64,000 nucleotides of DNA from contig NZ_JACKZY010000001.1 of assembly GCF_020833685.1 (NCBI RefSeq), positions 1,066,578 to 1,130,577 on the forward strand, in the 5' to 3' direction. A model generated the notes under the pieces. The model searched no databases. It had not been told where the DNA came from and was given only the letters and a program-made list of their open reading frames with translations. This document shows positions 9,746 through 42,109 of this stretch, piece after piece. Source of the stretch: Nitratireductor sp. B36. GTDB lineage: Bacteria > Pseudomonadota > Alphaproteobacteria > Rhizobiales > Rhizobiaceae. The translations under genes and the position numbers were made by a program. Numbering within the stretch: the stretch's first letter is position 1; every line of letters starts with the position of its first letter.

Positions 9746-9770
9746 TTGAACAATGAGTTCAAATTTGAAC
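9746..9770 (+). promoter_or_regulatory. composite operator copy C
   Basis: TTGAAC, 5 nt, GTTC, 6 nt, GAAC, 15 nt upstream of the start codon at 9786 of the second importer operon. The same layout is found at copies A and B. An alternative ATG at 9753 lies inside this element and is therefore unlikely to be the real start. Confidence 0.7.
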
Positions 9771-9785
9771 AGAGGCGCGCTTAGC

Positions 9786-11581: not shown

Positions 11582-12366
11582 TGGGCACCGACCGTTTGAT
11601 CCGCGTCGCACTTCCTGTTGCGACGGTAGCACTCTTTCTGATCGCATGGACGGTTTATGTCCGCACCGCCGAGGTGTCGGCCTTCATTCTGCCGACGCCC
11701 TTTCAGATCGTTCTCGCCTTTATCGAGCTCGTGAGCGATGCCGCGGTCTGGCGTCATGCGATGGTTACTGTCATCGAAGCGGTTTCAGGCTTTCTGATCG
11801 CCGTCTTTTTGGGCATCACGCTCGGTATGGCGATGGCGCGTGTGCAGATGCTCGAATGGGCCTTCAAACCCTTCATCGTGTGCCTGCAGCTAATTCCCAA
11901 GATCGCACTCGCACCGCTTTTCATCCTGTGGTTCGGCTTCGGACTGGAATCGAAAATCGTCATCGCCGCGGCACTTTCCTTTTTCCCGGTGTTCTCCAAC
12001 GCACTTGTCGCCTTCCGCTCCGTTGAACCGGGTGACCGCGACGTGTTCGTCATGCTGCAGGCAAATCCGGTCCAGCGCTTCACCATGCTCGACCTTCCAA
12101 CCGCCCTGCCCGTGGTTCTGGCCGGCATGGAGGTGGCAGTGGTGATGTCCATGATCGGCGCCATTGTCGGCGAGTTCATCGGCGGCAATGAGGGTCTCGG
12201 CTATCTCGCCGTCGCCATGCTTCAGGAGCTTCAGGTCCCCGGCCTCTTCGCCGTCATCGTGCTCCTGACGCTGATCGGGCTGACGCTCTACACGCTGATC
12301 GCGCAACTGCGTGGCTGGCTGACCCCATGGCACGCTTCCGTGGCAGGCAAAAGCCGGGAGGCCTAG
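11581..12366 (+). CDS. ABC transporter permease, SsuC/TauC type
   Basis: 261 aa with about six hydrophobic segments and the family loop (GDRDVFVMLQANPVQRFTMLDLPTALP). The ATG at 11581 shares a base with the ATPase stop. Completes the second importer whose operon begins under operator copy C. Confidence 0.9.
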   Translation: MGTDRLIRVALPVATVALFLIAWTVYVRTAEVSAFILPTPFQIVLAFIELVSDAAVWRHAMVTVIEAVSGFLIAVFLGITLGMAMARVQMLEWAFKPFIVCLQLIPKIALAPLFILWFGFGLESKIVIAAALSFFPVFSNALVAFRSVEPGDRDVFVMLQANPVQRFTMLDLPTALPVVLAGMEVAVVMSMIGAIVGEFIGGNEGLGYLAVAMLQELQVPGLFAVIVLLTLIGLTLYTLIAQLRGWLTPWHASVAGKSREA

Positions 12367-12537: not shown

Positions 12538-14439
12538 ATGCGTTCGCCGCTGCCCGACCTTCTTGCCGATCTTGTTGACCTGCTTCCCCGGGACGAGCGG
12601 GCGCTTCTGCTTCGTCTGCATAGCAGCAGTGAAGGCTCTGAACTGTGCACTCTTCTGGTCGGGAGCCATGAACGTGGCGCGGCCCGCAGACTGGCCGGAC
12701 GGCTTCCCCGCACAGTCCACTACCACCAGGAAGAAAACACACTCGTGGCAAGGCGAAGCGCGGTTGACCACTTGTCGAGCGCTCTGGCGCAGGAGGAGTG
12801 CGGGACATCGTCCACGGATGATCCCGTAACGCAGATCGTTGCTGCTCAGGAGAATGGAGACCACCAGCGTGCGCTGACCCTGTTTCAGGAAAATGGTGGC
12901 ATCTACTTCATCCACTTCCATGGAAACGACGCCTGTCTCGACGTCCTGAACCGATTTCCCAAGGCCATGGTGGACACCGAAGAAACATTGACCATGGCGC
13001 TTGCCATGCACGCGCTCAAGGCTGGCAACGTCACCCATGCACGCTATCTCATGGCCCAGCATTTCGGCAACGAGATGCACAGTCTCGAAACTGTCATCTC
13101 CGCGCGCGGGCGCTACCCGCTGGCTGTACGCCAATTCCGGTTCCTGATGGCGATCTATGAAGATCAACCCATCTCCAATCAGCTGCGCGAAAAGCTCTTC
13201 GACATGCTGGCCGAGCTACCGATCGACGATCATCTGCATCGCGGCAGTTTCTACAACGCAATGCTTGCGGTCTGCCTGCAGCGGCGGGAACTGAACGAGG
13301 CTGAGGAGATCGCCAAGCGCGCGCTTTATCACTATCAGCAGGCACAGGCTCATCTGCTCGTCTTTTACATCGAACTGCATTGTGTCGTCTTTTCGTTGCA
13401 ACGCGGCATGCTTTCAGAGGCCGAGCTCCGTGTGCAGGCAGCGCAGGAGGCCCTTGAGCGCGTGCCCTTCGACGTCCCCGCCGATCGTAGGCTTATGTCC
13501 TTGCTGGAAGGTGTGCTCGCCTATGAAAAAGGGGAGGCCGAATATCTGGTCCGCTTCGTGGCCGAAGAATTCGACAAATTCGCCTATGGAGAAATCTGGC
13601 CAGCCGTGGTCGAGCTTGCGCTTGTCTATTGCTCTCAGGTTGTCAGCCGCCAGGTGGGGCTTGGCGCGGCGATCAGTTTTCTGGACAAGTGGCGCGTGCA
13701 GGAATGGCGATCCCGTCGCTTCAACACGGCGATCACCATGCGCGAAGTCGAGCTCTTGCAGAACGCCAATCGCTGGCAGGCCGCCGCCGACCGGCTCATG
13801 GCGGTGCAGTCGCGCATCAACCTGACATGGGTGGAAACGGCAGAAGAAGCACTCTCGCGCCTGGTCGACCCCATCGAGATCGAACTAGCGATGGCGTGGC
13901 TTCGTCATCTCATACAACACCTTCCCCGAAGGCCTCTGCTGCGCGCCCAGATCGAAGCGCTGCTGCGAAATGAACATATTGGCGAGAGAGACAAGGGCCG
14001 GTTGCGGCTTTGGGCCGCCTACCTCGCGCGGGTCCACAGGGACATGACCCGGGCGCGCCACCTGTTTGCAGAGCTTCTGGACGAACTGGCCCGCATCGGC
14101 GTCATCACTCACCTGCTCGGCGACATAGGCCTGGTGGATGCTCTCGTGGATGACAAGCGGGTGGGCTCACAGGTGATCTCGACCGCCGAGCGACGTGCGA
14201 CATTGCGCAAACTCCACGGGTTTTCTCCCGGGCGCGAAACGAAATCCACGGTGCTCACCGCACAGGAACTGCGCGTTTTGCGCCTTGTGGCGGAAGGCGG
14301 CACCAACAAATTTGTTGCGCGGCAGCTGCGGCTTGCGGAGGTGACCGTCAAATTTCATCTCACCAATATCTATCGAAAGATGGGTTGTCAGCGTCGCGCA
14401 GAGGCGGTCGCAGCAGCGCGGTCCCTCGGATGGCTTTGA
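12538..14439 (+). CDS. LuxR-type transcriptional regulator with long helical N-terminal region
   Basis: 633 aa. Only the last ~65 residues are a recognised domain: a LuxR HTH (LTAQELRVLRLVAEGGTNKFVARQL...VTVKFHLTNIYRKMG). The first ~560 residues are rich in TPR-like amphipathic helices (A-x-x-A, LNEAEEIAKRALYHYQQAQ) and resemble the sensor half of MalT/LAL regulators, but no Walker A or B motif is present. The ATG has no clear ribosome site. It is immediately upstream of, and co-directed with, the HyuA/DUF917 importer operon and is its probable regulator. Confidence 0.8.
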   Translation: MRSPLPDLLADLVDLLPRDERALLLRLHSSSEGSELCTLLVGSHERGAARRLAGRLPRTVHYHQEENTLVARRSAVDHLSSALAQEECGTSSTDDPVTQIVAAQENGDHQRALTLFQENGGIYFIHFHGNDACLDVLNRFPKAMVDTEETLTMALAMHALKAGNVTHARYLMAQHFGNEMHSLETVISARGRYPLAVRQFRFLMAIYEDQPISNQLREKLFDMLAELPIDDHLHRGSFYNAMLAVCLQRRELNEAEEIAKRALYHYQQAQAHLLVFYIELHCVVFSLQRGMLSEAELRVQAAQEALERVPFDVPADRRLMSLLEGVLAYEKGEAEYLVRFVAEEFDKFAYGEIWPAVVELALVYCSQVVSRQVGLGAAISFLDKWRVQEWRSRRFNTAITMREVELLQNANRWQAAADRLMAVQSRINLTWVETAEEALSRLVDPIEIELAMAWLRHLIQHLPRRPLLRAQIEALLRNEHIGERDKGRLRLWAAYLARVHRDMTRARHLFAELLDELARIGVITHLLGDIGLVDALVDDKRVGSQVISTAERRATLRKLHGFSPGRETKSTVLTAQELRVLRLVAEGGTNKFVARQLRLAEVTVKFHLTNIYRKMGCQRRAEAVAAARSLGWL

Positions 14440-14570: not shown

Positions 14571-15599
14571 ATGCAGGAGAACTATCTCTACACCTTTGCC
14601 AAGCGCATTGCCGGTTTCGTCGGCGTGCTGTTCGTTCTGTCGCTGATGATCTTCATTCTCGCCCGCGTGGTACCGGGTGATCCTGCGCGCATCGCACTCG
14701 GCCCAAGCGCCTCGCAGGAGCAGGTTGACGCAATGCGCATGGAAATGGGGCTCGATCGTCCGCTGTTCGAGCAATATGTCACCTATGTTACCAACGCGCT
14801 GCAGGGGGACCTCGGCCGCTCGCTTATCTCCGGCCGCGCCGTCAGCACCGAAATCGCCAGCCTGCTTCCGGCGACCCTGGAACTGGTTCTGGTCACCGTT
14901 ATCCTGATGGCGTTGCTGGCCATTCCGCTTGGCGTCATCACCGCACGCTATCGCAACACCTGGATCGACAATACTGGACGGCTGTTTTCCATCGTCGGCG
15001 TCACCATGCCGAGCTTCCTCTTCGCCATACTTCTCCAGCTCTTTGCAGCATATTTTCTGACGGACTGGCCGATCATCGGCCGGATTGACCATTCGCTGGC
15101 CGCACCCACGGGGCCCACAGGGCTGCTCTTGGTGGATTCCCTTGTTCACGGACGCTTCGATGTGTTCCTGGACGCGCTTCAGCGCATTCTGTTTCCCGCG
15201 CTTGCGCTCGCCATGTCGGGTATCGGCCAGATCACCCGCATAACCCGGTCCGCAATGATCGAGAACCAGCGGCGTGATCATGTGCTGACATTGCAGTCCT
15301 TCGGCGTGCCCGATCGCGTCATTGTCTTCCGCTATTTGCTGAAACTGTCTTCCATCGCACCGCTGACGATCATGGGACTGGAGTTCGCCTCGCTGATCGG
15401 AAACGCTTTCGTGGTCGAACTCGTCTTCTCCTGGGGTGGGTTTGCTTCCTATGGCCTCAACGCCATTCTCCAGAAGGACCTCAATGCGGTGATGGGCGTT
15501 GTCCTCTTGTCAGGCCTGTTCTTCATCGTCGCCAATATCGTTATCGACATTATCCTGCTCATGCTTGATCCGCGTCTTCGTCTCAAGGAGGCGCGCTGA
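14571..15599 (+). CDS. ABC transporter permease, DppB/OppB family
   Basis: 342 aa from ATG 14571 (MQENYLYTFAKRI); the longer frame from 14478 would cover the operator-like repeats. N-terminal membrane segment, then the family motif VVPGDPARIALGPSASQEQV and five further membrane segments. Half of the membrane channel of a peptide/nickel-type (cluster C) importer; forms an operon with the other four transport genes. Overlaps the next permease gene by 1 nt. Confidence 0.9.
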   Translation: MQENYLYTFAKRIAGFVGVLFVLSLMIFILARVVPGDPARIALGPSASQEQVDAMRMEMGLDRPLFEQYVTYVTNALQGDLGRSLISGRAVSTEIASLLPATLELVLVTVILMALLAIPLGVITARYRNTWIDNTGRLFSIVGVTMPSFLFAILLQLFAAYFLTDWPIIGRIDHSLAAPTGPTGLLLVDSLVHGRFDVFLDALQRILFPALALAMSGIGQITRITRSAMIENQRRDHVLTLQSFGVPDRVIVFRYLLKLSSIAPLTIMGLEFASLIGNAFVVELVFSWGGFASYGLNAILQKDLNAVMGVVLLSGLFFIVANIVIDIILLMLDPRLRLKEAR

Positions 15600-16474
15600 T
15601 GTCCTCCAGCAGGCCTCTTGAACTCGAAGCTCTCACGCCGCGCTACATGGCGTGGTACCGCTTTACGCGCAATCCCACCGCCATCATCGGCGCGGCCATG
15701 GTGCTGTCGGTCATTCTGCTGGCGATCCTCGCTCCATTGATTGTGCCCTATCCCGAACATGTGGGTGCGGCGGTCAATTTCCGGGCACGGCACGCCGCAC
15801 CTGACCTTGCCTATTGGCTCGGCACCGACAAGGTGGGGCGTGACATTCTCACCCGCGTCATTTTCGGGTTCAGGGTTTCCCTTCTTCTGGTTGTCGGTGT
15901 GCTCGCCGTGGCGGTTCCGCTTGGCGCAGCACTGGGGCTGGCGGCAGGCTATTTCGGCGGCTGGACAGAGCGCCTCATCACCGGTCTCACCAATGTCATG
16001 CTGGCCATCCCGCCGCTGGTCATGGCGCTCGCGGTCGGCAATGTGCTCGAACCCAATCTCGTCAACGCGATGATCGCCATCACCCTTCTCTGGTGGACCT
16101 GGCATGCGCGTCTTGTCTATCGCGTTTCCAAGTCGATCGCGGCTGAAGATTTTGTCGAGGCTGCGCGCCTTGCCGGCGCAAGCCACTGGCATATTCTGAC
16201 CCGCGAGATCCTGCCGAACTGCATCTCCGTCATCTCGGTCAAAACCACCCTGGATGCTGCCTTCGTCATCCTGTTCGGTGCGACGCTCTCCTTCCTGGGC
16301 CTCGGGGTCAAGCCACCGACGCCGGACCTTGGCTCCATGGTGGCAGACGGTCGGCAGTTCCTGCCGGAAATGTGGTGGGGCGTTCTGGCACCCGGCTTTG
16401 CCATCTTCTACGCCACCCTCGGTTTCAACCTGCTGGGCGACGGGCTCCGCGACATGTTCGACGTGGAGGTTTGA
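15599..16474 (+). CDS. ABC transporter permease, DppC/OppC family
   Basis: 291 aa. N-terminal segment with NPTAIIGAAMVLSVILLAI, the family motif LGTDKVGRDILTRVIFGFR, and the permease loop (EAARLAGASHWHILTREILPN). Partner of the DppB-type permease whose stop overlaps its start. Ends two bases before the ATPase gene start. Confidence 0.92.
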   Translation: MSSSRPLELEALTPRYMAWYRFTRNPTAIIGAAMVLSVILLAILAPLIVPYPEHVGAAVNFRARHAAPDLAYWLGTDKVGRDILTRVIFGFRVSLLLVVGVLAVAVPLGAALGLAAGYFGGWTERLITGLTNVMLAIPPLVMALAVGNVLEPNLVNAMIAITLLWWTWHARLVYRVSKSIAAEDFVEAARLAGASHWHILTREILPNCISVISVKTTLDAAFVILFGATLSFLGLGVKPPTPDLGSMVADGRQFLPEMWWGVLAPGFAIFYATLGFNLLGDGLRDMFDVEV

Positions 16475-16476
16475 CG

Positions 16477-18156
16477 ATGACCGCACTTCTCGACGTCTCC
16501 GGCCTTAACGTCGCCTTCCAGACCTATGGACGCCGGCACCATGTGTTGCGGGATGTTGCTTTGACAATCCCGCAAGGTGGCCGTGTCGCCCTGATCGGGG
16601 AAACGGGGTCCGGAAAATCGGTTACCAGCAAGGCTATTCTCGGAACGCTGCCGCGCAACGCACGGGTGGAAAGCGGATCGATCAAGTATCGCGATGAGGA
16701 TGTTCTGAGCATGCCGACAGCCCGGCGCGACGCGCTCAAGGGCACCGCCTTTTCCGTGATCATGCAGGACCCGCTTTCCTCGTTCAATCCGGTCTTCAAG
16801 ATCGGCAGGCACCTCGATGACGTCCTGTATCATGCCGACCGGCGTCTCGGACGCAGAACGGGCGCGGCGGAGCGTCAGAAGAGGATCTTCGAAGTCCTGA
16901 GCCGCGTTCAGCTGAATGATCTGGAGCGGATTGTCTCCGCCTATCCTTCCCAGCTTTCCGGCGGCATGCGTCAGCGCGTTCTGATCGCGCTTTCCCTTCT
17001 GCACCAGCCGGATCTCCTGATCGCCGATGAACCGGGAACCGCGCTCGACGTGACGACGCAGGATGAGATCATGAAACTCATCAACCGTCTCGTCGATGAA
17101 AACGGCCTCTCCCTGCTGATGATTACTCACAATCTCGGTGTCGTGCGGCAGATGGCGGACGATGTCTATGTGATGCGTTATGGCGAGATCGTTGAGCACG
17201 GGCGTCTCGGTGAAATCTTCTCCGCACCGCGCCAGGACTATACCCGTGAACTGATCGATGCGATCCCGCCCCTTTACGGGAAGAAGGTGGAAGACCAGAA
17301 GCCCGCCACAGCTGCGCCCATCGTGGAGATGCAGAACGTTACAAAGGTTTTCGAGCAGAAACCCCTGATCGGTCGGCGGACCAGACATGTGGCCGTTTCG
17401 GACGTGTCGCTATCGGTGCGGCGCGGAGAAGTCTTCGGCCTTGCCGGCGAATCGGGTTCGGGAAAAACCACCGTCGCGCGCATGGTCATGGGCCTGATCG
17501 ATGCCTCCAGCGGTATAGTGACCGTCGACGGAAAACCAGTCGCCAGCGAGCGCGGCAGCGATGCCTTCCGGCGAAAGATCCAGATCGTTTATCAAAACCC
17601 CGGCACCTCTCTCAATCCGAAGCGCACCGTGGGACAGACGCTTGCGGTTCCCCTCACATTTGCCGGATTGAACGGCAAGGCGCGGGACGCACGCATCACC
17701 GAGCTTCTCGCACAGGTCGACCTGCCGGCCAGCTATGTCGGAAAATACCCGCATGAGCTATCCGGCGGGCAGAAGCAGCGTGTTGCCATTGCCCGCGCCC
17801 TCGCCGCCGATCCGGAGATCATCGTCCTTGATGAACCGACATCCGCGCTCGACGTCTCCGTGCAGAAGAATGTCATCGCGCTTTTGACGCGGCTGCGTGA
17901 AGAGCTTGGGTTGACCTATCTCTTCATCTCTCACGACCTGTCATTGATGCGCAATTTCTGCAGCCAGATCGCGATCATGCTGCGCGGCGAGATAGTCGAG
18001 GCCGGTGAACCGCGCACACTGTTCCAGGCACCACAGCACCCATACACCCGCGCGCTCATCGCCGCCGTTCCGGTGATCAGCGACGAGGAAGAAGCCCACA
18101 AACCCCGCGTGAGCGATGAGGAGCGGCGACGCTACCTCGTCGACACGGCGGCCTGA
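16477..18156 (+). CDS. fused DppD-DppF-type ABC transporter ATPase
   Basis: 559 aa from ATG 16477, with GGAGG 7 nt upstream. Two complete nucleotide-binding domains: Walker A GETGSGKSV with signature LSGGMRQR and Walker B LLIADEPG in the first half; GESGSGKTT, LSGGQKQR and IIVLDEPT in the second. Each half ends with the oligopeptide-transporter C-terminal pattern (HPYTRALIAAVP in the second). The fusion replaces the usual two separate ATPase genes. Powers the permease pair encoded just upstream. Confidence 0.92.
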   Translation: MTALLDVSGLNVAFQTYGRRHHVLRDVALTIPQGGRVALIGETGSGKSVTSKAILGTLPRNARVESGSIKYRDEDVLSMPTARRDALKGTAFSVIMQDPLSSFNPVFKIGRHLDDVLYHADRRLGRRTGAAERQKRIFEVLSRVQLNDLERIVSAYPSQLSGGMRQRVLIALSLLHQPDLLIADEPGTALDVTTQDEIMKLINRLVDENGLSLLMITHNLGVVRQMADDVYVMRYGEIVEHGRLGEIFSAPRQDYTRELIDAIPPLYGKKVEDQKPATAAPIVEMQNVTKVFEQKPLIGRRTRHVAVSDVSLSVRRGEVFGLAGESGSGKTTVARMVMGLIDASSGIVTVDGKPVASERGSDAFRRKIQIVYQNPGTSLNPKRTVGQTLAVPLTFAGLNGKARDARITELLAQVDLPASYVGKYPHELSGGQKQRVAIARALAADPEIIVLDEPTSALDVSVQKNVIALLTRLREELGLTYLFISHDLSLMRNFCSQIAIMLRGEIVEAGEPRTLFQAPQHPYTRALIAAVPVISDEEEAHKPRVSDEERRRYLVDTAA

Positions 18157-18185
18157 GAACCCTTCAGAAAGGCAGGACCAGAAAA

Positions 18186-19742
18186 ATGTATCGTCTAGGG
18201 ATCGATGTTGGCGGCACGAACACCGATGCGGTGATCATGCAGGGCCGCAATGTGCTTTCCGGCGTCAAGGCCTCGACAACCGAGGATGTCACCTCCGGCG
18301 TGCGCGAAGCGATGGAAGCGGCAATTTCCAAGGCCGATATCGACCGTTCGAAGATCACGACCGTCATGATCGGCACAACACACTTCACCAACGCGGTGAT
18401 CGAGCGCCGGCATGTGAATCCGGTGGCAGCGATCCGGCTTGGCCTGCCGGCAACCGCTTGCCTGCCACCGATGGTCGACTGGCCGGACGACCTGCGCGAA
18501 GCAGTCGGGGGCCATGGCTATCTCGTGCGTGGCGGCTACGAGTTCGATGGCCGCGAGCTTGCCGCACTCGACCTTGAGGAAATCGACCGGATTGCCGACG
18601 ACATCAACGCCAAGCGCATTGGAGCCGTCGCAATCACATCCGTGTTCGGTCCCATCAATGCGCAGATGGAAGAGGAAGCCCGCAAGCGCCTCCTGACAAA
18701 GTGCCCTGACATCCCGGTGGTCCTCTCCAGCGAGATCGGCCGCATCGGCCTCCTCGAGCGCGAAAGCGCTGCCGTCATGAATGCGAGCCTGCTTCAGCTC
18801 AGCGCTCGCACGGTAGAAGCCTTCGCTGATGCCCTGAAATCGGCCGGCCTTCACTGCCCGTTCTTCATCACCCAGAACGATGGCACACTGATGGGGGCGG
18901 AGACGGTAAAGCGCTTCCCGGTGCTGACCTTCGCGTCAGGCCCGACCAATTCCATGCGCGGGGCCGCCTTCCTCACGGGTGTGCGCGACGGCATCGTTGT
19001 GGACATCGGCGGCACCACCACCGATATCGGGTCGCTCCAGCACGGCTTTCCGCGCCAGGCGGCCACGGTGGTCGACATCGGCGGTGTGCGAACCAACTTC
19101 CGCATGCCTGATGTTTTCTCCATCGGGCTGGGCGGCGGCTCGCTTGTGCGCCAATCGGGCGACCAGGTCACCGTTGGCCCGCAATCCGTGGGCTACCGCA
19201 TCACGCGGGAAGCACGCGTCTTTGGCGGTGACACGCTCACCACGACCGACATCGCCGTGGCCCGAGGCGAAGCGGAGGTGGGTGACCGCGCCCGCGTCGC
19301 CGACCTCGACCCGGCTCTGTTGGAAGCAGCCCGCGCCGAGATGACCAGCATGCTGGAGCGCGCCATCGAGCGCACGCGCCTTTCTCCCGACCCTGTCCCT
19401 GTCATTGCGGTCGGCGGCGGCTCGATCTTGATGCCGGAGCAGATCGGCGATCTGAAGGTCATGCGGCCTGAAAATTTCGCCGTGGCCAATGCCGTTGGCG
19501 CTGCGATCGCGCAGATCAGCGGAGAGGTCGACCGCATCTTCTCGCTGGAGAAAGGACTGACGCGCGAAATCTGCCTCAAGCAGGCCGAGGACGAGGCGCG
19601 CGAAAAAGCCATCCGCTCCGGTGCCGTTGCTGAGACGATCGAGACCATCGAACGCGAAGATGTACCACTGGCCTATCTGCCGGGAAATGCGACCCGCATT
19701 CACGTCAAGGTCGTGGGCGAGATGGGAGGTCACGATGCTTGA
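18186..19742 (+). CDS. HyuA-like hydantoinase/oxoprolinase-family ATPase
   Basis: 518 aa. Two ASKHA phosphate loops, DVGGTNTD (7-14) and DIGGTTTD (about 274-281), plus the FASGPTNSMRGA stretch define the hydantoinase/oxoprolinase A family, which uses ATP to open cyclic amides or to carboxylate ketones. Members usually pair with a HyuB-type subunit; none is present. Instead, two DUF917 genes follow directly (8-nt overlap with the first). With the upstream importer this suggests ATP-dependent attack on an imported cyclic amide or related compound (inference). Confidence 0.85.
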   Translation: MYRLGIDVGGTNTDAVIMQGRNVLSGVKASTTEDVTSGVREAMEAAISKADIDRSKITTVMIGTTHFTNAVIERRHVNPVAAIRLGLPATACLPPMVDWPDDLREAVGGHGYLVRGGYEFDGRELAALDLEEIDRIADDINAKRIGAVAITSVFGPINAQMEEEARKRLLTKCPDIPVVLSSEIGRIGLLERESAAVMNASLLQLSARTVEAFADALKSAGLHCPFFITQNDGTLMGAETVKRFPVLTFASGPTNSMRGAAFLTGVRDGIVVDIGGTTTDIGSLQHGFPRQAATVVDIGGVRTNFRMPDVFSIGLGGGSLVRQSGDQVTVGPQSVGYRITREARVFGGDTLTTTDIAVARGEAEVGDRARVADLDPALLEAARAEMTSMLERAIERTRLSPDPVPVIAVGGGSILMPEQIGDLKVMRPENFAVANAVGAAIAQISGEVDRIFSLEKGLTREICLKQAEDEAREKAIRSGAVAETIETIEREDVPLAYLPGNATRIHVKVVGEMGGHDA

Positions 19743-20853
19743 TCGCCAGGACGGCCGGTGGCGCCTCGATGAGGCGATGGTCGATGCGCTGGAAATCGGC
19801 TCGGGCATTCTCGGCACGGGCGGCGGCGGTAATCCGTATATCGGCAAATTGCGGGTGCGCCAGGCTTTGCGTGATGGCCATGTCATGGAGATCATCCCTC
19901 TGGAAAGCGTTCCCGACGAGGCACGCATCGTGGCGATGGGCGGCATTGGCGCTCCTCTCGTTTCGCATGAACGCATCAAGGAGGGACGCGAAGGGCTGCG
20001 CTGTGTCAGGGCGCTGGAAGAGCGTCTTGGCATAAAGGTGGACGCGATTGCCTGTGAGGAGATTGGTGGTCAGAATTCAATGGAGCCCTTGATCGCAGCC
20101 GCGATGGCTGGTCTGCCTGTCGTCGACTGCGATGGCATGGGCCGCGCGTTTCCTGAAATGCAGATGACCACCTATGCCATTTACGGGCATCGCTCGACGC
20201 CAAGCGTCATGTGCGATCCCCACGGCAACGTGGTGATTTTCGACCATGCGATTTCAGAACTCTGGCATGAGCGGATGGCGCGAGCCTGCGTCGTCTCACA
20301 GGGCGGCGCCTCGACGCTGGCAAGCGCTCCCATGTCGGGAGAATTCATCAAGCGCTACGCCATTCCCCATTCCTACAGCAAAGCCATTTCGCTCGGGAAC
20401 GCCGTTCTCGATGCCCGACGCGAGCACCGCGACCCTGTGGAAGCGATCTGTGAGAGCGAAAACGGCGAAGTGGTGTTTCGGGGCAAGATTGTCGATCTGA
20501 AACGCCATCTGGCCGGAGGCTTCGTCCGCGGCGAAGCAATCATCCAGGGTTTTGACACCTATGATGGCGATCAGGCCTCCATTCACATCCAGAACGAGTT
20601 CCTGATCTTCTCGCGCAACGGCGAGATCGAGGTCATCGTCCCTGATCTGATTGTCGTCCTGGATGCCGACAGCGGCGAGGCGATTTCCACCGAAATGCTG
20701 CGATACGGCCAGCGCGTTGCCGTGCTCGCCCTTCCCTGCCATCCGCTCCTGCGCAGCCCCGAAGCGCTTGATGTGGTGGGCCCGAAAGGGTTCGGCTTCG
20801 GAGACATCGCCTTCAAGCCGATGGACACGAACGACAAGAAAGGTGCGGCATGA
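19735..20853 (+). CDS. DUF917-domain protein (S-methyl-thiohydantoin desulfurase-like family), first copy
   Basis: 372 aa from ATG 19735, with GGGAGGT just upstream; overlaps the HyuA-like gene end by 8 nt. The family signature is visible: glycine loop GTGGGGNPYIGKL near residue 24, CEEIGGQNSMEPL, and DCDGMGRAFPEMQM. To my knowledge Pfam now describes this domain (PF06032) as an S-methyl-thiohydantoin desulfurase domain, but few members are tested. A second copy follows with a 4-nt overlap; two subunits of one enzyme is a natural reading. Confidence 0.82.
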   Translation: MLDRQDGRWRLDEAMVDALEIGSGILGTGGGGNPYIGKLRVRQALRDGHVMEIIPLESVPDEARIVAMGGIGAPLVSHERIKEGREGLRCVRALEERLGIKVDAIACEEIGGQNSMEPLIAAAMAGLPVVDCDGMGRAFPEMQMTTYAIYGHRSTPSVMCDPHGNVVIFDHAISELWHERMARACVVSQGGASTLASAPMSGEFIKRYAIPHSYSKAISLGNAVLDARREHRDPVEAICESENGEVVFRGKIVDLKRHLAGGFVRGEAIIQGFDTYDGDQASIHIQNEFLIFSRNGEIEVIVPDLIVVLDADSGEAISTEMLRYGQRVAVLALPCHPLLRSPEALDVVGPKGFGFGDIAFKPMDTNDKKGAA

Positions 20854-21935
20854 CCTCCTTTTCTGTGAACGCGGATGACATGGACGCCATCGCGCTCGGC
20901 GGTGCATTTCTGGGCACGGGCGGCGGTGGCGATCCGTATATTGGAAAGTTGATGGCAAAGCAGGTCATTGCCTCGCACGGGCCGGTCACCGTCATTTCCG
21001 CCGACGAACTTCCCGACGACGCCTTGTGCATCCCCGTCTGCATGATGGGAGCTCCGACCGTGATGGTCGAGAAACTGCCCAATGGCGAGGAAGCCCGCGA
21101 GGCCCTCAGCCAGCTCGAGACCTTTCTGGGCCGCAAGGCCGATGCCCTCATCTGCATCGAGGCGGGTGGCCTGAATTCCACCATCCCCTATGCCGTTGCA
21201 GCCGCCACCGGGTTGCCGCTGGTCGATGGCGACGGGATGGGCCGGGCATTCCCGGAGTTGCAGATGGTGACGCTGACGATCCACGGCATCTCGGCAACAC
21301 CGATGGTTTTGGCCGATGACAAGGGCAACAGCTCGGTGATCAATGCGATCTCCAACCGCTGGACCGAAAGGCTGGCACGCTGCCAGACGGTGGAAATGGG
21401 CGGCGCGGCGCTTGTCGCACTCTACCCCATGAGCGGAGCAGAGGTGAAACGCGGCATTCTCCACGGCACCATGTCACTGATCAAGGAGATCGGCGAGACG
21501 ATGGCGGCGGAGCGCAAGGCAAGCCGCAATCCTGCAGCCGCCCTTTTGAAGCGGCTGGACGGCAAACGCCTGTTTACAGGCCGCGTCGTCGATATCGACC
21601 GGCGAACCGTCGGAGGCTTCGCCCGCGGCAAGGCTCTGTTCAAAGGGATCGACGAGGATGAGGGACGGTCCTTTGAAGTCGAATTCCAGAACGAGTTCCT
21701 GGTCTGCCGCGACGATGATGGCCTGCTGGCTGTCACACCCGATCTGATCTGCGCGCTCGACGCCGATGGCGGCCTTCCCGTCACAACAGAGCAACTTCGC
21801 TACGGGCTGGCGGTCAATATGATCGGGCTTGCCTGTGACCCGCAATGGTCGACCCCCGAGGGGCTTGAACTCGTTGGGCCCCGATACTTCGGCTACGAGC
21901 ATGACTACGTGCCGCTGAACCAGATGTCCCGGTGA
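20850..21935 (+). CDS. DUF917-domain protein, second copy
   Basis: 361 aa. Shares with its upstream neighbour the loop GTGGGGDPYIGKL, the ICIEAGGLNSTIPYA segment, DGDGMGRAFPELQM and a C-terminal FQNEFLVCRDD region, but is diverged along its length, so it is an old duplication and not a recent copy. Its start overlaps the previous stop by 4 nt. Function presumed the same family chemistry on a cyclic nitrogen (or sulfur) compound; it may form a heteromer with the first copy. Confidence 0.82.
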   Translation: MTSFSVNADDMDAIALGGAFLGTGGGGDPYIGKLMAKQVIASHGPVTVISADELPDDALCIPVCMMGAPTVMVEKLPNGEEAREALSQLETFLGRKADALICIEAGGLNSTIPYAVAAATGLPLVDGDGMGRAFPELQMVTLTIHGISATPMVLADDKGNSSVINAISNRWTERLARCQTVEMGGAALVALYPMSGAEVKRGILHGTMSLIKEIGETMAAERKASRNPAAALLKRLDGKRLFTGRVVDIDRRTVGGFARGKALFKGIDEDEGRSFEVEFQNEFLVCRDDDGLLAVTPDLICALDADGGLPVTTEQLRYGLAVNMIGLACDPQWSTPEGLELVGPRYFGYEHDYVPLNQMSR

Positions 21936-21978
21936 GAAGGACGCAACATTGATGGAACCAGAGAAGAGGAACAGGACA

Positions 21979-23550
21979 ATGAGACTTTTGAAACATGCGC
22001 TGGCCGGTGCGGTTCTCGCTGCCACCACAGCGTTGACTGCGCCGGCTATGGCTCAGGACAAGCTTTCGCTTGTCGTCAACGTCGTGCAGATTTTCGGTAC
22101 GGTCGACCCGGCCAAGATCACCGACTACACCGAGTATATGGCTGCCGTGAACCTCTATGACGGTCTCACAACCGTCAGCAGTGGCGGTGAGGTGGTGCCC
22201 CAGCTCGCGGAAAGCTGGGAGGTCTCCGACGACAACCAGACCTACACCTTCAAGCTGAAGCAGGATGCGACTTTTCAGGATGGCAGCCCGGTGGAAGCCA
22301 AGGACGTTGTCTATACCCTGCAGCGCCTTCTTTCGCTGAACGAGGGTCCGGCCTATCTCTTCTCCGATCTCGTCGATCCGGAGAACGTCAAGGCGCTCGA
22401 TGACCATACGGTTGAAATCCGGATCAACCGCGTCTACGCGCCGTTCATTTCCATCACGCCGCTGGTTCTCGTGGTCAATTCTGATGTGGCCAAAGAACAG
22501 GACGGCGAGTGGGGCGAGGACTACCTGGCCGAAAACAGCCTGGGCGCCGGCCCCTACAATCTCAGCGGCTGGACCCGCGGCGCCGAGATGATCATGCAGC
22601 GCTACGAGGGCTACCACGCCGGCTGGGCCAAGGATCGTCCGATCGACGAACTTCGTTTCGTCGTCACGCGCGACGAAGCCACGGTGCGCGCGCTCGCCCA
22701 GCGTGGCGAGCTGGGTCTCTCCTCCCAGTATCAGAGCAGCGAGACCTACAAGGCCATCGAGGCGCTCGACACCTACAAGCTGATCGAGGCCAGCACCGCG
22801 ACGGGCTTCTACCTCAAGGTCAACAACCAGCTCCCACCCACCGATGACGTGCATATCCGTCGCGCCATCGCCTATGCGCTGGATTATGCGACCATCCGCG
22901 AGGTCATCTATCCGGGTGGCGAGATGAAGAGCGTGCTTTCCTCGCTGTTCTCCGAAGCGCATCTGGACGAGCTCCCCTCCCCCGAATACAGCCTCGAGAA
23001 GGCCGCCGAGGAAGTCGCCAAATCAAAATATGCCGGCGACAAGCCGATCAAGCTCGGCCATGCCTATGTCGCCAACACGGCGTTCGAGGAGGAGATCGGG
23101 CTTCTCTTCAAATCGACGCTGGAGACCATCGGTTTCGAGGTCGATCTGCAGCCGGAGCCGTGGAACCGCATCACCGAGCTCGCCACCAAGGTGGAGACAA
23201 CGCCGAACACGGCGCAGGTGTTCTACGGTCCGACCTATCCTTCGCCCGATTCCGTGTTCTTCGTGCAATACCATTCGCGCGCGGCGGGCACATGGTCCTC
23301 GATGTCGTGGGTGAACGACCCCGAGGTCGACGCGATGATCGACAAGTCCCGTGCGACGGTGGATGAGGCGGCGCGCAATGCCATCTACAAGGACATCCAG
23401 GCGCGCCTGCACGAGAACATGGCCGAGATCCCTCTTCTCACCCAGTTGAAGCGCATGGCAGCCCATTCCTGCCTCCAGGGCTATGCGGAAGTGCCCATGC
23501 AGAGCTGGGACTATGACTTCTCGCGCATGTGGTGGTCCTGCGAGGGCTGA
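21979..23550 (+). CDS. ABC transporter substrate-binding protein, family 5 (peptide/nickel type)
   Basis: 523 aa from ATG 21979, which gives a clean signal peptide (MRLLKHALAGAVLAATTALTAPAMAQ); an in-frame ATG at 21952 is possible. The mature part has the family 5 features: VPQLAESWEVSDDNQTYTF, DVVYTLQRLL, and a C-terminal half with PEPWNRITELATK. Delivers substrate to the DppBC-type permeases at the start of the operon. Its placement at the operon end, after the catabolic genes, ties transport and metabolism to a single ligand. Confidence 0.9.
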   Translation: MRLLKHALAGAVLAATTALTAPAMAQDKLSLVVNVVQIFGTVDPAKITDYTEYMAAVNLYDGLTTVSSGGEVVPQLAESWEVSDDNQTYTFKLKQDATFQDGSPVEAKDVVYTLQRLLSLNEGPAYLFSDLVDPENVKALDDHTVEIRINRVYAPFISITPLVLVVNSDVAKEQDGEWGEDYLAENSLGAGPYNLSGWTRGAEMIMQRYEGYHAGWAKDRPIDELRFVVTRDEATVRALAQRGELGLSSQYQSSETYKAIEALDTYKLIEASTATGFYLKVNNQLPPTDDVHIRRAIAYALDYATIREVIYPGGEMKSVLSSLFSEAHLDELPSPEYSLEKAAEEVAKSKYAGDKPIKLGHAYVANTAFEEEIGLLFKSTLETIGFEVDLQPEPWNRITELATKVETTPNTAQVFYGPTYPSPDSVFFVQYHSRAAGTWSSMSWVNDPEVDAMIDKSRATVDEAARNAIYKDIQARLHENMAEIPLLTQLKRMAAHSCLQGYAEVPMQSWDYDFSRMWWSCEG

Positions 23551-23641: not shown

Positions 23642-24658
23642 TCAGGATCGGGCCGAGGCTTTTTGCGTGTGCGAAGGGGCAGCGCCTGCCGCCGTTTCCG
23701 GCAGCCCCGACCACGCATCGTCGCGCGCAATGCGCCGCGCCTCGCGCATGCCCCGCGTGATGCTTCCCATCCCCTTCAACCGGCGCTCCACGGCCACCAG
23801 CCGCAGGATTTCCTTGAGGGCGACGAGCGCCGTACCGAAGGCGAAGGGTATCGGCCTGTAGCGGCCCTTTGCGCGCAGATAGTGCACGAGCAGCCCGCGA
23901 TTGCGCATCATGTAGAAGCGCGAGAGATCCGATGCCTCGGCCAGATGCCGCACGCCCAGGCTGATCTGCCGCTGATGGCGCAGGCGCTGCAGCACCACCC
24001 CCTTCACGCACACGACATCGGTCACATGCGAGGCCAGCCAGCCATAGGCGAGATCGTCCCAGGTGATGAAGAAGCGCGGATCGGGAAAGCCGATCGCATC
24101 GACCACCGAGCGGTGCACGAAAAGGCCCTCGAACGTGGCGAGGTTCGTGTGCCACACATCGGCGCGTCGAAAGAGGTTGCCGGGGCGCGGCAGCGCCACG
24201 CCGAGGGCGGGAAAAAAGACGTTCTGGAAGAAGAACGGCCTGCCGTCGCTGTTCTCCCGCTCTCCCATCAGGCAGCGATATCGGCCGGCATGGGCAAGCA
24301 GCGTCTCGAGCCCGGAAGGGGCGAGCGCCACATCGTCGTCCATCAGCCACATCCATTCCGCGCCGGCCGCGTGGGCCAGGCGAACCCCTTCGTGAAAGCC
24401 GCCTGCCCCGCCCAGATTGCGCTCAAGCAGGCGATAGTCGAGCTCGACCGGCCCAAGGGCAGCGCGCGCCGCCTCCACCACGGCGGGCGTCTCGTCGCCG
24501 CTGGCATTGTCGATGATGACGAGGCGCTCCGGCAAAAGGGTCGAGCCCGCCACGCTTTCCAGCAATTGCGCCAGCATGGCGGGCCGCCGATAGGTGACGA
24601 CCACCACCGCCACGCCCCTGGCGATCCGCCTGCCTTTGCCCGTCTCGACGCCGGTCAC
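23642..24658 (-). CDS. GT2 glycosyltransferase, galactofuranosyltransferase-like
   Basis: 338 aa. The start is the GTG at 24658, which overlaps the upstream gene's TGA (GTGA); the longer frame would run deep into that gene. GT-A fold with VVVVTYRRP, the GlfT-like NLGGAGGFHEG loop and a metal-binding DDD (WLMDDDV). The N-(L/M/F)-G-G-(A/S)-G-G-F plus M-D-D-D pair is shared with the proteins at 24655 and 25685. With UDP-galactopyranose mutase nearby, UDP-galactofuranose is the likely donor (inference). Confidence 0.8.
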   Translation of the reverse strand: MTGVETGKGRRIARGVAVVVVTYRRPAMLAQLLESVAGSTLLPERLVIIDNASGDETPAVVEAARAALGPVELDYRLLERNLGGAGGFHEGVRLAHAAGAEWMWLMDDDVALAPSGLETLLAHAGRYRCLMGERENSDGRPFFFQNVFFPALGVALPRPGNLFRRADVWHTNLATFEGLFVHRSVVDAIGFPDPRFFITWDDLAYGWLASHVTDVVCVKGVVLQRLRHQRQISLGVRHLAEASDLSRFYMMRNRGLLVHYLRAKGRYRPIPFAFGTALVALKEILRLVAVERRLKGMGSITRGMREARRIARDDAWSGLPETAAGAAPSHTQKASARS

Positions 24659-25554
24659 GGGTTCAGATGCGGCGCGCGGTCGAAGCGATAGGCCAGTCCG
24701 TCGCGGAAGGCCCGCCACCAGAAAGCGAGCCCCGCCCAGTCGAACCGCCGCTTGACGATATAGACAAAAGGATAGAGCACCAGATCTCCCACAAAGCTCT
24801 TCAGCCGCCTGTGCCGGCGCGCCAGATAGCCGCGATTGCGGAAGAAGTAATAGCGCTTGAACTCGGTTTCGGGAATGAGAACATTGACGCGGCCGGAAAT
24901 GATCGGGACGATCTCGCCCCAGCCCGGCGGGTGGGCCACCACGGCATTGGTGACCGTGCCGAAGCGGATGCCCGCGCGCCTGAGCCGCACCATGAAATCC
25001 ACCTCATCGCCGCGGATGAAGAGCCGCATGTTGGGCAGGCCGACCTTGAAGAAGACATCGCGGTGCACAAGCGCACCATTGAAGAACTGGGCCATGGAGG
25101 GGATGAAGTCCAGCGTCTCCACCGCCGCGCGGTCATGCGTCAGCTTTCCGCGCACGCGGAAGGGAAAGGACAGGCGCTGCTGGTCCTCGGGCGCGACGAT
25201 GATGGGCGAAACAACCTCCAGCCCCCGCGCCTTCGCCTCTTCCAGAAGCGTTTTGAGGCAATCCTCACCGACCGGAAAGGCATCGTCATCCATGATCCAG
25301 ACCCACTCGGCCCCGCCGGCCAGCGCCGAGAGGATGGCATAGGAAAACCCGCCGGCACCGCCCATGTTGAGGCGGGTGGGGATGGAGTTCAGGGCAAAGG
25401 CCGTCTCCGGCTGCGCCTCCCCCGTCACCACGCGGACAACATCTCCGGCCAATAGTCCTTGCTGCCGCGCAAGCACGCTTTCTTCCGGCAACGCGGGATC
25501 CATGGAGACGACCGCAACGCGTATGCGCAAACCGGCCCTGCTTTCATTAGCCAT
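24655..25554 (-). CDS. GT2 glycosyltransferase, galactofuranosyltransferase-like
   Basis: 299 aa from ATG 25554 (MANESRAG); longer readings to 25644 add a tail without similarity to the fold. Shows NMGGAGGFSYA and WIMDDDAF, the GlfT-type donor and metal motifs, and a later FIRGDEVDFMVRLRRAG where the catalytic base is expected. Likely cytoplasmic, membrane-associated through the basic C-terminal part. Coupled to the next glycosyltransferase by a 4-nt overlap, so the two probably act in one glycan assembly step. Confidence 0.8.
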   Translation of the reverse strand: MANESRAGLRIRVAVVSMDPALPEESVLARQQGLLAGDVVRVVTGEAQPETAFALNSIPTRLNMGGAGGFSYAILSALAGGAEWVWIMDDDAFPVGEDCLKTLLEEAKARGLEVVSPIIVAPEDQQRLSFPFRVRGKLTHDRAAVETLDFIPSMAQFFNGALVHRDVFFKVGLPNMRLFIRGDEVDFMVRLRRAGIRFGTVTNAVVAHPPGWGEIVPIISGRVNVLIPETEFKRYYFFRNRGYLARRHRRLKSFVGDLVLYPFVYIVKRRFDWAGLAFWWRAFRDGLAYRFDRAPHLNP

Positions 25555-25684
25555 CAAAATTTTCGACACTTTCCAACGTGGATAAAACAAAATTTGAGTT
25601 GGTTCATACATAAACCTGTTGGATTTTGCGACCGGATCGTTCAATACACCTCATGATTGTGCCTCCCCCCAAGGTAAGTGATTC

Positions 25685-27505
25685 ATGATTACCCTCCAGA
25701 ACCTGGTTTTTCCGGAATACGAAATCTGCACTGAAACCGAGCTCTATTTTCGTACCAGCGGCATGGTCGCAGCAAGTTTCGAGAAAAGAAATTTCCACTT
25801 TTCTCCTGGAGGAAAACTATCATTCGACACCTACTTCAATGCCCTGAGCATCGGAAAGTGGTCACGCCTGTGTAAGTTGGGAAAACTGTTTCTTCGGCTT
25901 GCAGGCACTGGCCGTTTTCAGCTTCGGGTACGCTGCGCTTATCTGAATCGCTCATGGGAAGTTTTGTACAACGATGTCGTCTCGCTCGAGCCGGAAGTTC
26001 CCCTCTCCGTCGAACTTGACGGGAGCGATGAACAATGGCGCAACGGCGTTCTTTATTTCGAGCTGACAGCGCTCTCTGAAGGGACGCTGGAGAGCGCAGC
26101 TTTTACGACAGACACACAACCCTTGCGCGACATAAAGCTTGCGATCTCGATAACGACCTTCAAGCGCGAGGCTCAGGTGGAGGAGACCACGCGACGCCTG
26201 CGCCGTTATCTGGCAAACCATCCCTACAGCGCAGATATCGGCGTGTTTGTGGTGGACAATGGCAAATCGGCGAAGATCGAGACCGACAACCAGATCCGCT
26301 ATATCGAAAACCCGAATTTCGGCGGATCAGGCGGCTTTGCGCGCGGGCTCCTGGAAGCAAGCGATTCGGGCTTCTCCCATTGCCTGTTCATGGACGACGA
26401 CGCCTCGTTCCATATGGAAAACCTTCACCGCACCTACTCGTTCCTGCAACTGGCGCGGAAGGAGAATACTGCGATTGCCGGCGCGATGATTGCGAACAAC
26501 TACAAATGGCGAATGTGGGAGAATGGAGCGCTTTTTGACAGGCTTTGCCGGCCCCGCTTCAAGGGGGCTGACCTCCGGCTGTTTAGCTCTGTCATTGAGA
26601 TCGAGCGCGAATCGCTCAATTCCCAGCCTGCGAACCTTTATGGCGGCTGGTGGTTTTTCGCCTTTCCCATTGCCAGTGTGCAGCACTATCCTTTCCCGTT
26701 TTTCGTGCGGGGTGACGACGTCAATTTCTGTTTGACGAATGAATTCTCCATCCAGACACTCAACGGCGTTGTCTCATTCCAGGATGATTTCGACGAGAAG
26801 GAAGGCGCGCAAACCGTCTATCTGGATTTCCGCAGCCATCTGATCCACCATCTCACCTCTCACAAGATCAGCCGGTCTCCCTTACATGCCATAAGGATCC
26901 CCCTTTGGTTCGTTTTGCGAAACATCGTGAAGATGCATTATGAGACCGCTGATGCCGTCCTCCAGGGTTGGAGAGATGTTCTGGAGGGGCCGGAGTACTT
27001 TCGAGAGAACATGACGCATGAGCGGCGGCGCGAGTCGCTGAAGTCTCTTCTCAATCAAGAGCTTTGGAGAGAATGCGCAGACCATGAACCTCTCCCACAT
27101 GCGGCTGTTGCCCTCCCTCTTTGGCAAGCCCACCTGATGAAATTCACCTTGAACGGGCATCTGATACCAGGCTTCACTTTATTTGCTCGAGAAACGACCC
27201 TTCCATCAGAGAAGAAAAATCACCTGTCGCTGATCTGGGGCGCGAAAAAAATTCGAATAATAAAGTCAGATGACACGAAATATTATACAGTCAGTCATCA
27301 AAAATTTAGAGGCATCAAACAAGTCGCCAAGGCTACCCTTCTAAGCGTACATACTTTTTTTATTTGGGGTCGCCTTAGAGCAGCGTATACACAAGGACAC
27401 CGTGAATTGACGTCTCAGGAGTTCTGGTCTTCAGTTTCTCTATATAAAAAAGAAATCACCCGCTCTTCAAATCAATCTTTTCATTCAAGCCGCGAGTCGA
27501 TTTGA
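25685..27505 (+). CDS. GlfT2-like galactofuranosyltransferase
   Basis: 606 aa. An N-terminal beta-rich region of about 150 residues (YFRTSG, LSFDTYFNA, VPLSVELDGS) precedes a GT-A domain starting near SITTFKREAQV, with NFGGSGGFARG, FMDDDASF and FFVRGDDVNF. This two-part layout matches mycobacterial GlfT2, the polymerising galactofuranosyltransferase. Diverges from the two other GT2 genes. Its 3' end, from about 27.2 kb, becomes AT-rich and merges into the low-GC region that follows, hinting at a recombination edge. Confidence 0.82.
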   Translation: MITLQNLVFPEYEICTETELYFRTSGMVAASFEKRNFHFSPGGKLSFDTYFNALSIGKWSRLCKLGKLFLRLAGTGRFQLRVRCAYLNRSWEVLYNDVVSLEPEVPLSVELDGSDEQWRNGVLYFELTALSEGTLESAAFTTDTQPLRDIKLAISITTFKREAQVEETTRRLRRYLANHPYSADIGVFVVDNGKSAKIETDNQIRYIENPNFGGSGGFARGLLEASDSGFSHCLFMDDDASFHMENLHRTYSFLQLARKENTAIAGAMIANNYKWRMWENGALFDRLCRPRFKGADLRLFSSVIEIERESLNSQPANLYGGWWFFAFPIASVQHYPFPFFVRGDDVNFCLTNEFSIQTLNGVVSFQDDFDEKEGAQTVYLDFRSHLIHHLTSHKISRSPLHAIRIPLWFVLRNIVKMHYETADAVLQGWRDVLEGPEYFRENMTHERRRESLKSLLNQELWRECADHEPLPHAAVALPLWQAHLMKFTLNGHLIPGFTLFARETTLPSEKKNHLSLIWGAKKIRIIKSDDTKYYTVSHQKFRGIKQVAKATLLSVHTFFIWGRLRAAYTQGHRELTSQEFWSSVSLYKKEITRSSNQSFHSSRESI

Positions 27506-27557
27506 TTTAAAACCATACAATTACCAGCAATACCTACGTAATTTCTCCGCTTTACAT

Positions 27558-28514: not shown

Positions 28515-28539
28515 AAAACCAGCCTTCCCAACTTCTAGA

Positions 28540-29613: not shown

Positions 29614-29621
29614 CCGACAAC

Positions 29622-30809
<1,188 letters not shown>

Positions 30810-41969: not shown

Positions 41970-41992
41970 CCCCCCAACAACGCACAGCGAAT

Positions 41993-42011
41993 CCCGGCCA
42001 AACAGGCCGGG
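41993..42011 (+). terminator. hairpin between ccoP and ccoG
   Basis: CCCGGCC (41993-41999), loop AAACA, GGCCGGG (42005-42011). No T-run follows, so it is more likely an attenuator or mRNA-stabilising stem separating the oxidase and assembly messages than a full terminator. Confidence 0.45.
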
Positions 42012-42034
42012 GTTCGGCCTCGCAGCCTCCCGCT

Positions 42035-42048
42035 TTGATCGGGATCAA
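42035..42048 (+). promoter_or_regulatory. FNR/FixK box before ccoG
   Basis: TTGATCGGGATCAA, a perfect TTGAT-N4-ATCAA palindrome. Centre 68 nt before the ccoG ATG (42110), leaving a leader of about 27 nt if activation is at -41.5. It gives the ccoGHIS operon its own low-oxygen promoter. Confidence 0.85.
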
Positions 42049-42109
42049 TGCCCGAGATGTTTCCGGCCGCTAGACGATAGGCTCAAAGAGCAGTTTGCGA
42101 GCCGCCGAA

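Follow-up and report, generated by a model that had tools for sequence, protein, structure and literature searches.

What might a hydantoinase-type ATPase do when it stands without a HyuB subunit and is followed by two genes of another family? The question is raised by a locus of Nitratireductor sp. B36 (genome of 4.19 Mb), within a 64,000-nucleotide stretch of contig NZ_JACKZY010000001.1, here called the window, in which a peptide-type importer is encoded together with a short HyuA protein and two DUF917 proteins, DUF917-A and DUF917-B. From sequence comparison we consider it probable, although with a good deal of room for error, that this operon encodes an importer and a two-component ATP-dependent cyclic-amide hydrolase, in which one HyuA kinase would work with exchangeable DUF917 subunits. 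That short HyuA proteins and one clade of DUF917 proteins form a near-obligate pair is strongly supported and holds well outside the window too; from it we infer a HyuA-type ATP-dependent enzyme with a different partner fold. The nearest named relative of the locus is that of Nitratireductor sp. pb3, whose HyuA is 99% identical. The genes concerned are as follows:

12538..14439, + strand: LuxR-type regulator with a C-terminal GerE helix-turn-helix, candidate operon regulator (Pfam GerE, E 3.6e-17)
14571..15599, + strand: DppB/OppB-type permease (BPD_transp_1, E 9.5e-33)
15599..16474, + strand: DppC/OppC-type permease (BPD_transp_1 and OppC_N)
16471..18156, + strand: fused double ATP-binding importer subunit (two stretches each of ABC_tran and oligo_HPY)
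18186..19742, + strand: short HyuA (518 aa), ASKHA-type ATPase, proposed cyclic-amide carbonyl kinase (Hydant_A_N, Hydantoinase_A)
19735..20853, + strand: DUF917-A (372 aa), S-Me-THD-like, proposed exchangeable hydrolytic partner of HyuA (S-Me-THD_N/C)
20850..21935, + strand: DUF917-B (361 aa), S-Me-THD-like, proposed as a further partner for this HyuA (S-Me-THD_N/C)
21979..23550, + strand: substrate-binding protein of family 5; a Sec-type signal is apparent by eye (SBP_bac_5, E 1.8e-68)

A first-pass annotation of this DNA had described the same gene anatomy, and all of its genes were recovered in place with concordant Pfam assignments (for two genes the Pfam input was a longer frame, starting at 14478 and 21949). 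Its dedicated peptide-type importer is borne out by two permeases, the double ATPase and the binding protein, and its overlapping genes by overlaps of 8 nt between HyuA and DUF917-A and 4 nt between DUF917-A and DUF917-B. The two diverged DUF917 paralogues that it noted are 40% identical, and the missing HyuB partner is likewise confirmed, with no PF02538 match within the window.

Surveys were run both ways, with DUF917 and with HyuA queries, in 397 genomes of the phylum and in 389 partly overlapping genomes of the class. The HyuA counts in both are lower bounds, up to three candidates per genome having been scored (all of them for the three exceptions described below), and the thresholds (a DUF917 profile score of 415 for loci, 165 bits for the class survey) were chosen after the gap in scores had been seen. 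In the phylum sample 26 of 397 genomes contain a PF06032 match, and the scores split into those of at least 177 bits (14 genomes) and those of at most 135 bits. A close full-length short HyuA (at least 42% identity, 15 genes) occurs in 13 genomes, all of which also have a high-scoring DUF917; none has HyuA only, and a single genome (G281) has only a high-scoring DUF917, which is truncated (L111) and for which no close HyuA was found when the genome was searched by itself. None of the 12 genomes with only a low-scoring DUF917 encodes a short HyuA at this threshold, and all 15 HyuA genes adjoin a DUF917 when coordinates are compared by eye. In the class sample a HyuA match at E 1e-40 was obtained in 47 of 389 genomes, of which 11 partial ones were dropped, as was G362 from the phylum set (a partial match in a 667-aa frame); in the dropped genomes the match covers about 320-345 residues at 34-39% identity, and the frames are 665-814 aa long. 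Short HyuA is present in 36 of the 389 and high-scoring DUF917 in 36, with both in 35 (Fisher p 1e-47, genomes treated as independent). The exceptions are G874, with HyuA only, and G782, a draft of about 260 contigs with DUF917 only, in which a HyuA fragment covering the N-terminal residues 1-104 (58% identity) may represent a broken gene or a contig break. Adjacency to DUF917 is seen for 34 of 38 HyuA genes in the class sample, while three are unlinked in the same genome and one is without a DUF917 found.

The same association appears when regions are anchored on either gene. Among 40 DUF917-anchored regions a short HyuA lies beside all 22 high-scoring DUF917s and none of the 17 low-scoring ones, the fortieth being the truncated L111 without HyuA; matches in G043, G381:C53, G084, G450 and the window itself lie outside this set. 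The DUF917s of L094 and L095 (score 388, below the threshold) do stand beside a HyuA, of 463 aa. In 80 of 80 HyuA-anchored loci the next member of either family after the anchored HyuA is a DUF917; these loci are the best HyuA matches and reflect few evolutionary events. With this and the two genome surveys, the pairing is not a matter of chance. Distances between HyuAs correlate with those between DUF917s in 32 single units (mirror-tree r 0.74, against a maximum of 0.34 in 1000 permutations). The pairing is seen in records from Alphaproteobacteria, Enterobacterales, Bacillota and Actinomycetota, the last two from plasmid records only. No open reading frame matched both profiles in the loci examined: the longest PF06032 frame in the surveys (856 aa, G464) lies in a region, L127, where DUF917 and HyuA are separate frames, and the HyuA match that accompanies a 748-aa PF06032 frame in G884 sits in a different, 527-aa frame entry. 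Fused HyuA-DUF917 proteins may occur in fungi. The Geobacillus-type plasmids of L094 (2969-9554) and L095 (2967-9554) have a cytosine-permease (NCS1-type) gene with two DUF917-HyuA units on either side of it, and the 463-aa HyuA in these loci is accompanied by a long-branched DUF917.

The short HyuA itself carries intact phosphate motifs, P1 DVGGTNTD (with D7) and P2 DIGGT (with D273). Residues D7, G9, G10, T11, D14, D273, G275, G276 and T277 are kept in 162 of 162 short HyuAs, and T13 in 161 (profile score of at least 630, near-copies included; the 463-aa HyuAs of L094 and L095 and end-cut pieces in L047 and L141 were left out of this alignment). The first aspartates of P1 and P2 in the caprolactamase subunit CapA, D11 and D295, matter for activity according to the accessible part of PMC8453981. 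At positions 116-117 all 162 short HyuAs have GG, where four of five long HyuAs compared have ER; in PMC5214803 the motif R/KERiDsxG is described as a fingerprint that adjoins the contact surface for the HyuB-type subunit. An AlphaFold2 model of the window HyuA (pLDDT 81.4) aligns with CapA (6yra; Z 23.2, rmsd 4.3, 488 aligned residues) across residues 6..613 of the 691-residue CapA chain. By alignment and model, the short HyuA has other residues in place of the HyuB-interface motif and has lost the C-terminal domain. The fifth long HyuA, without ER, is the lone HyuA of L009 in the same genome (L009:6667-8784, contig C4 near 41,700-43,800), a 705-aa protein whose gene is flanked by those for cytochrome bd and for malate synthase G; this HyuA has GG instead of ER and no PGP, and neither a HyuB nor a DUF917 match was found in the surrounding 15 kb.

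Because of this near-obligate pairing, the intact phosphate motifs and the lost interface residues and C-terminal domain, DUF917 probably replaces HyuB as the partner of HyuA. Both window proteins are clear members of their family, with S-Me-THD_N and S-Me-THD_C scores of 191.6 and 224 bits for DUF917-A and 206.5 and 223.7 for DUF917-B (Pfam cut-off 27). The AlphaFold2 model of DUF917-B (pLDDT 90.3) has the same fold as CV_3147 (2o3i; Z 38.5, rmsd 2.3, 334 aligned, 28% identity), an uncharacterised DUF917 protein from structural genomics that is the model's sole match above noise, the next one falling to Z 5.6. Nine residues are invariant in 29 single HyuA-paired DUF917s and in both window copies, namely (A/B numbering) E109/E104, N114/N109, D133/D128, R137/R132, E179/E173, R183/R177, R257/R251, N287/N281 and E288/E282; these conserved core residues may be catalytic. 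The residues E79/E74, N114/N109, D133/D128, E179/E173, R257/R251 and P34/P29 are not kept in 17 DUF917s that stand without HyuA, the solo DUF917s. All positions with conservation of 93% or more among the 29 single proteins have the identical residue in both window copies and the same majority residue in both window-type groups, with few rows varying (for example at P193 and G348 of B). We also considered that one copy might be a dead scaffold, a possibility ruled out by the conserved core positions in both.

Does the tandem arrangement matter? The first-pass annotation had suggested that the two DUF917 proteins jointly replace HyuB in a heteromeric hydrolase. That DUF917 replaces HyuB is probable from co-occurrence, adjacency and the lost interface motif and C-terminal domain, but an obligate tandem pair does not stand. 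The survey of HyuA-DUF917-DUF917 neighbourhoods that it had proposed found that the tandem recurs, but that units with a single DUF917 are commoner: 164 units, which come mostly from Rhizobiales loci and are non-independent, comprise 63 in the order DUF917-HyuA, 55 HyuA-DUF917, 45 HyuA-DUF917-DUF917 and one DUF917-DUF917-HyuA, so that 63 + 55 have one DUF917 per HyuA. The 80 HyuA-anchored loci include 36 with HyuA-A-B, 40 with HyuA-A and a second unit in which a third DUF917 type, x, accompanies its own HyuA, and two with x-HyuA and HyuA-B; the other two have A only (L043, and L063, where the contig ends). DUF917-A therefore occurs without B in 42 of the 80, 40 of which have x, and DUF917-B lies beside HyuA without A in L021, L031 and L093. 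HyuAs 73-79% identical to that of the window are accompanied by A without B (L043, L092), by B without A (L021, L031) or by both. Exactly two full-length DUF917s, as AB, Ax or Bx, are nevertheless found in 78 of the 80 loci. The tandem arrangement seems to have arisen on two or more occasions, because the tandems of the Rhizobium leguminosarum type (L100, L124, L125, L127) use other DUF917 subclades than the window type. Our reading is that these loci may combine one kinase with exchangeable DUF917 partners, and that two DUF917 activities may recurrently be needed per transporter. On an Ensifer plasmid (L092:10680-10952) a remnant of DUF917-B lies behind an intact HyuA and DUF917-A, in a locus that adjoins nitrile hydratase genes.

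In a tree of 76 DUF917s (a quick method, with SH-aLRT support only) the HyuA-paired proteins fall in one group of 59 (support 95), which also includes the long-branched L094_2969, beside a 463-aa HyuA, and L096_12195, with no HyuA directly beside it. The other 17 are all solo and split into two groups, one with 12 members and one with 5. Of 20 solo DUF917 loci, 11 contain a urocanate hydratase relative (the probe's own included), but none was found in the 38 paired loci outside the 80 HyuA-anchored ones or in the examined stretches of those 80. In one example (L149) the solo DUF917 is surrounded by genes for an S/N-oxide reductase, an amidohydrolase and urocanate hydratase, which we take to be an ergothioneine-type pathway; we likewise assume that the urocanate hydratase context, in the degradation of histidine-like betaines, defines the desulfurase family. 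The NCBIfam desulfurase models NF058529 and NF058532, which we presume from the Pfam name to describe members of the S-Me-THD family, match the window DUF917s over most of their length (E 1.4e-31 to 4.1e-22), although at 106.7 and 109.8 bits for DUF917-A and 78.7 and 109.7 for DUF917-B, far under the curated cut-offs of 440 and 450. The thiohydantoin link would belong, if anywhere, to the solo DUF917s, because urocanate hydratase neighbours are found only there and the NCBIfam scores agree. Other solo DUF917s, in L145 (7866-9457, with an ABC importer on one side and a cupin gene on the other) and L114-L118, have neither HyuA nor urocanate hydratase found nearby.

Clues to the substrate come from the neighbouring genes of relatives. 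Hydantoin utilisation involves NCS1 transporters of hydantoins, racemases that act on them and M20 N-carbamoylases. Of the paired loci that lie outside the 80 (38 in number, 16 of them hand-picked plasmid records), 11 contain an NCS1-type permease, 9 an Asp/Glu-type racemase and 2 AroM, with at least one of these in 21; the three probes were themselves derived from three of the 38. The 22 survey loci that were not hand-picked have NCS1 in 3 and racemase in 5, 8 in total. Solo DUF917 loci contain neither racemase nor AroM. These counts are lower bounds, because Pfam found AroM in loci where the probe found none. A Pfam scan of 94 of 131 neighbours of paired survey loci gave no fixed substrate, since it returned mostly ABC importers and LuxR regulators; two amidases, two AroM and two NCS1-type permeases were among the 25 commonest of 71 families (the 37 neighbours left out include every one from L103 and L110, loci similar to L102 and L107). 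By analogy, from the HyuA fold and the NCS1-type permeases and racemases of some relatives, a cyclic amide or hydantoin is a plausible substrate. Hydantoins, lactams and cyclic dipeptides would all be candidates, because the 80 loci lack NCS1 and racemase genes but have a peptide-type importer. Some hydantoin-hydrolysing strains, one of them a Rhizobium, also cleave cyclic dipeptides, according to an abstract that gives no gene names (PMC3852281).

In the pathway that we propose, the dedicated peptide-type ABC transporter would import a small hydantoin-, lactam- or cyclic-dipeptide-like amide. To judge from its fold and motifs, the short HyuA would then spend ATP on turning the ring amide into an imidate phosphate, and a DUF917 subunit in the place of HyuB would bind the activated ring and hydrolyse it. 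DUF917-A and DUF917-B would be complete alternative partners sharing one HyuA, probably each for a different substrate or stereoisomer. A tentative extension, which we hold to be doubtful, is that this is a new class of ATP-dependent hydrolase in which DUF917 attacks a ring carbon bearing a leaving group. Solo DUF917s would use substrates that already bear such a group, for instance the thiol or thioether of thiohydantoins, while paired DUF917s would need the short HyuA to put a phosphate on a plain ring amide. The residues invariant only in paired proteins (E74, N109, D128, E173, R251 and P29 of DUF917-B) would then form a phosphoimidate or HyuA-docking site, and one kinase would accept several plug-in DUF917 isozymes, any two of A, B and x per transporter.

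Several observations weigh or may weigh against the proposal that HyuA and DUF917 form one enzyme acting on cyclic amides. The fold search with the DUF917-B model listed no HyuB match, and no HyuB-like Asp-His-Asp-His site was identified in DUF917. The adenosine motif GxxPGP, described for CapA in the accessible part of PMC8453981, is not kept in the window HyuA or in the consensus of mainly short-HyuA alignments, so that ATP binding may differ from that in CapA. The mirror-tree correlation is confounded by species phylogeny. Five genomes of family f152 have HyuA and DUF917 unlinked (three) or one of them missing (two), and G874, a draft of about 350 contigs, still gave no DUF917 match when searched by itself. 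With regard to substrate, an NCS1-type permease also occurs in 2 of 20 solo DUF917 loci, and of ten context probes applied to the 80 HyuA-anchored loci only AroM matched (4 of 80), with no racemase or NCS1. In family f152 (L151-L158) the neighbour of HyuA in L151 and L157 is a gene of CoA-transferase family III, and that of DUF917 in L152 and L154 is an amidohydrolase.

The exceptions in family f152 bear on the possibility that HyuA and DUF917 are independent catalysts acting in sequence in one pathway, which we judge unlikely though deserving of attention. DUF917 alone would, for example, hydrolyse a ring or thio-ring, and HyuA would phosphorylate or open the next intermediate. The DUF917 fold can apparently work alone, because DUF917s without HyuA nearby exist, including all 17 low-scoring loci, and the family f152 genes, unlinked in three genomes and with one missing or broken in two, point the same way. 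However, a short HyuA without a DUF917 match is limited to one of 36 class genomes (G874) and none of 13 phylum genomes, and the short HyuA is without HyuB-facing features, as though it had switched partner. An obligate heteromer of the tandem DUF917-A and DUF917-B, replacing HyuB so that HyuA, A and B form one enzyme, is more improbable still. The recurrence of tandems in 45 of 164 units, from different subclades in the window and the R. leguminosarum type, would fit it, as would the two DUF917s per locus in nearly all of the 80; but A and B occur separately, and with the core residues kept in both copies neither looks like a mere scaffold, and on these grounds we reject it.

The first-pass annotation had linked the DUF917 proteins to desulfuration of thiohydantoins, and in this account DUF917 would desulfurate a thiohydantoin or S-methyl-thiohydantoin and HyuA would open the resulting hydantoin. 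We regard this as very improbable. The proteins share a Pfam family with the desulfurases, whose models do match them, but at 79-110 bits against cut-offs of 440-450, and the DUF917s linked to urocanate hydratase lie on other branches with no HyuA, whereas 0 of 38 and 0 of 80 paired loci have urocanate hydratase; desulfuration by DUF917-A or DUF917-B is rejected on scores, branch and gene context. It is scarcely credible that the partner of HyuA is a HyuB from another place in the genome, with DUF917 as a bystander, an outcome that the annotation had itself named as one that would overturn its proposal. The genome does hold two PF02538 matches, both on other contigs, but each accompanies its own HyuA: one lies inside a 1233-aa frame that also contains HyuA, and the other near its own 747-aa HyuA frame. 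The short HyuA has lost the interface motif, and its co-occurrence with DUF917 is near perfect. We return, then, to DUF917 as the probable exchangeable partner of a short HyuA.

Among the closest known systems is the caprolactamase CapAB of Pseudomonas jessenii (6yra; PMC8453981), which shares the ASKHA-type HyuA subunit, its P1/P2 motifs and its fold; ATP-driven opening of a cyclic amide would be the shared chemistry. CapAB differs in its HyuB-type CapB, described there with an Asp-His-Asp-His zinc site, where the window partner is a DUF917, and by comparison the window HyuA has neither GxxPGP nor the ER interface motif and is shorter at its C-terminus by about 80 residues. A HyuA-type kinase subunit (Z 22-23 to the window model) is also part of the acetophenone and acetone carboxylases (5l9w, 5svb), but these enzymes carboxylate ketones and contain a HyuB-type beta and an extra gamma subunit, and the portion available of PMC5214803 does not mention DUF917. 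We assume that thiohydantoin desulfurases act without HyuA, in line with the HyuA-free DUF917s near urocanate hydratase. Annotated plasmid records name the genes only 'hydantoinase/oxoprolinase family protein' and 'DUF917 domain-containing protein'. In open-licence literature we found neither a description of a HyuA-DUF917 enzyme nor the term 'thiohydantoin desulfurase'. DUF917 genes of cyclodipeptide-oxidase clusters have been suggested to be hydantoinases, with no experimental characterisation, and peptide ABC importers, AroM and hydantoin racemases are enriched near them; a HyuA partner goes unmentioned in the part of that source available (PMC11055893). Elsewhere, in the accessible portions, DUF917 is listed together with hydantoinase and permease (PMC7513527, PMC12915319) or named in a mutation table (PMC9503626).

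The remaining genes around the operon can be assigned in part. Relatives among the 80 HyuA-anchored loci were found for the LuxR gene in 75, the DppB/OppB-type permease in 80, the DppC/OppC-type permease in 78, the ATPase in 78 and the binding protein in 80. The LuxR-type regulator (12538-14439) is probably part of the locus, since its relative is present in 75 of 80; in the two-HyuA locus type it lies on the opposite strand. Directly upstream of it (9753-12366) is a second importer, with an NMT1-type binding protein by Pfam and an ATPase and permease by eye. On the 3' side of the operon (23642-30803) glycosyltransferase-like and sugar-mutase-like genes begin, by eye, and this suggests a separate surface-polysaccharide region.

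If a HyuA-DUF917 enzyme of this kind exists, a widespread catabolic activity would become directly testable, and HyuA kinases would gain a second kind of hydrolytic partner. The DUF917 family would then divide into solo proteins that resemble desulfurases and proteins that depend on ATP, a division that would stop the wrong transfer of the desulfurase name. For biocatalysis, ATP-driven lactam opening has practical interest as well.

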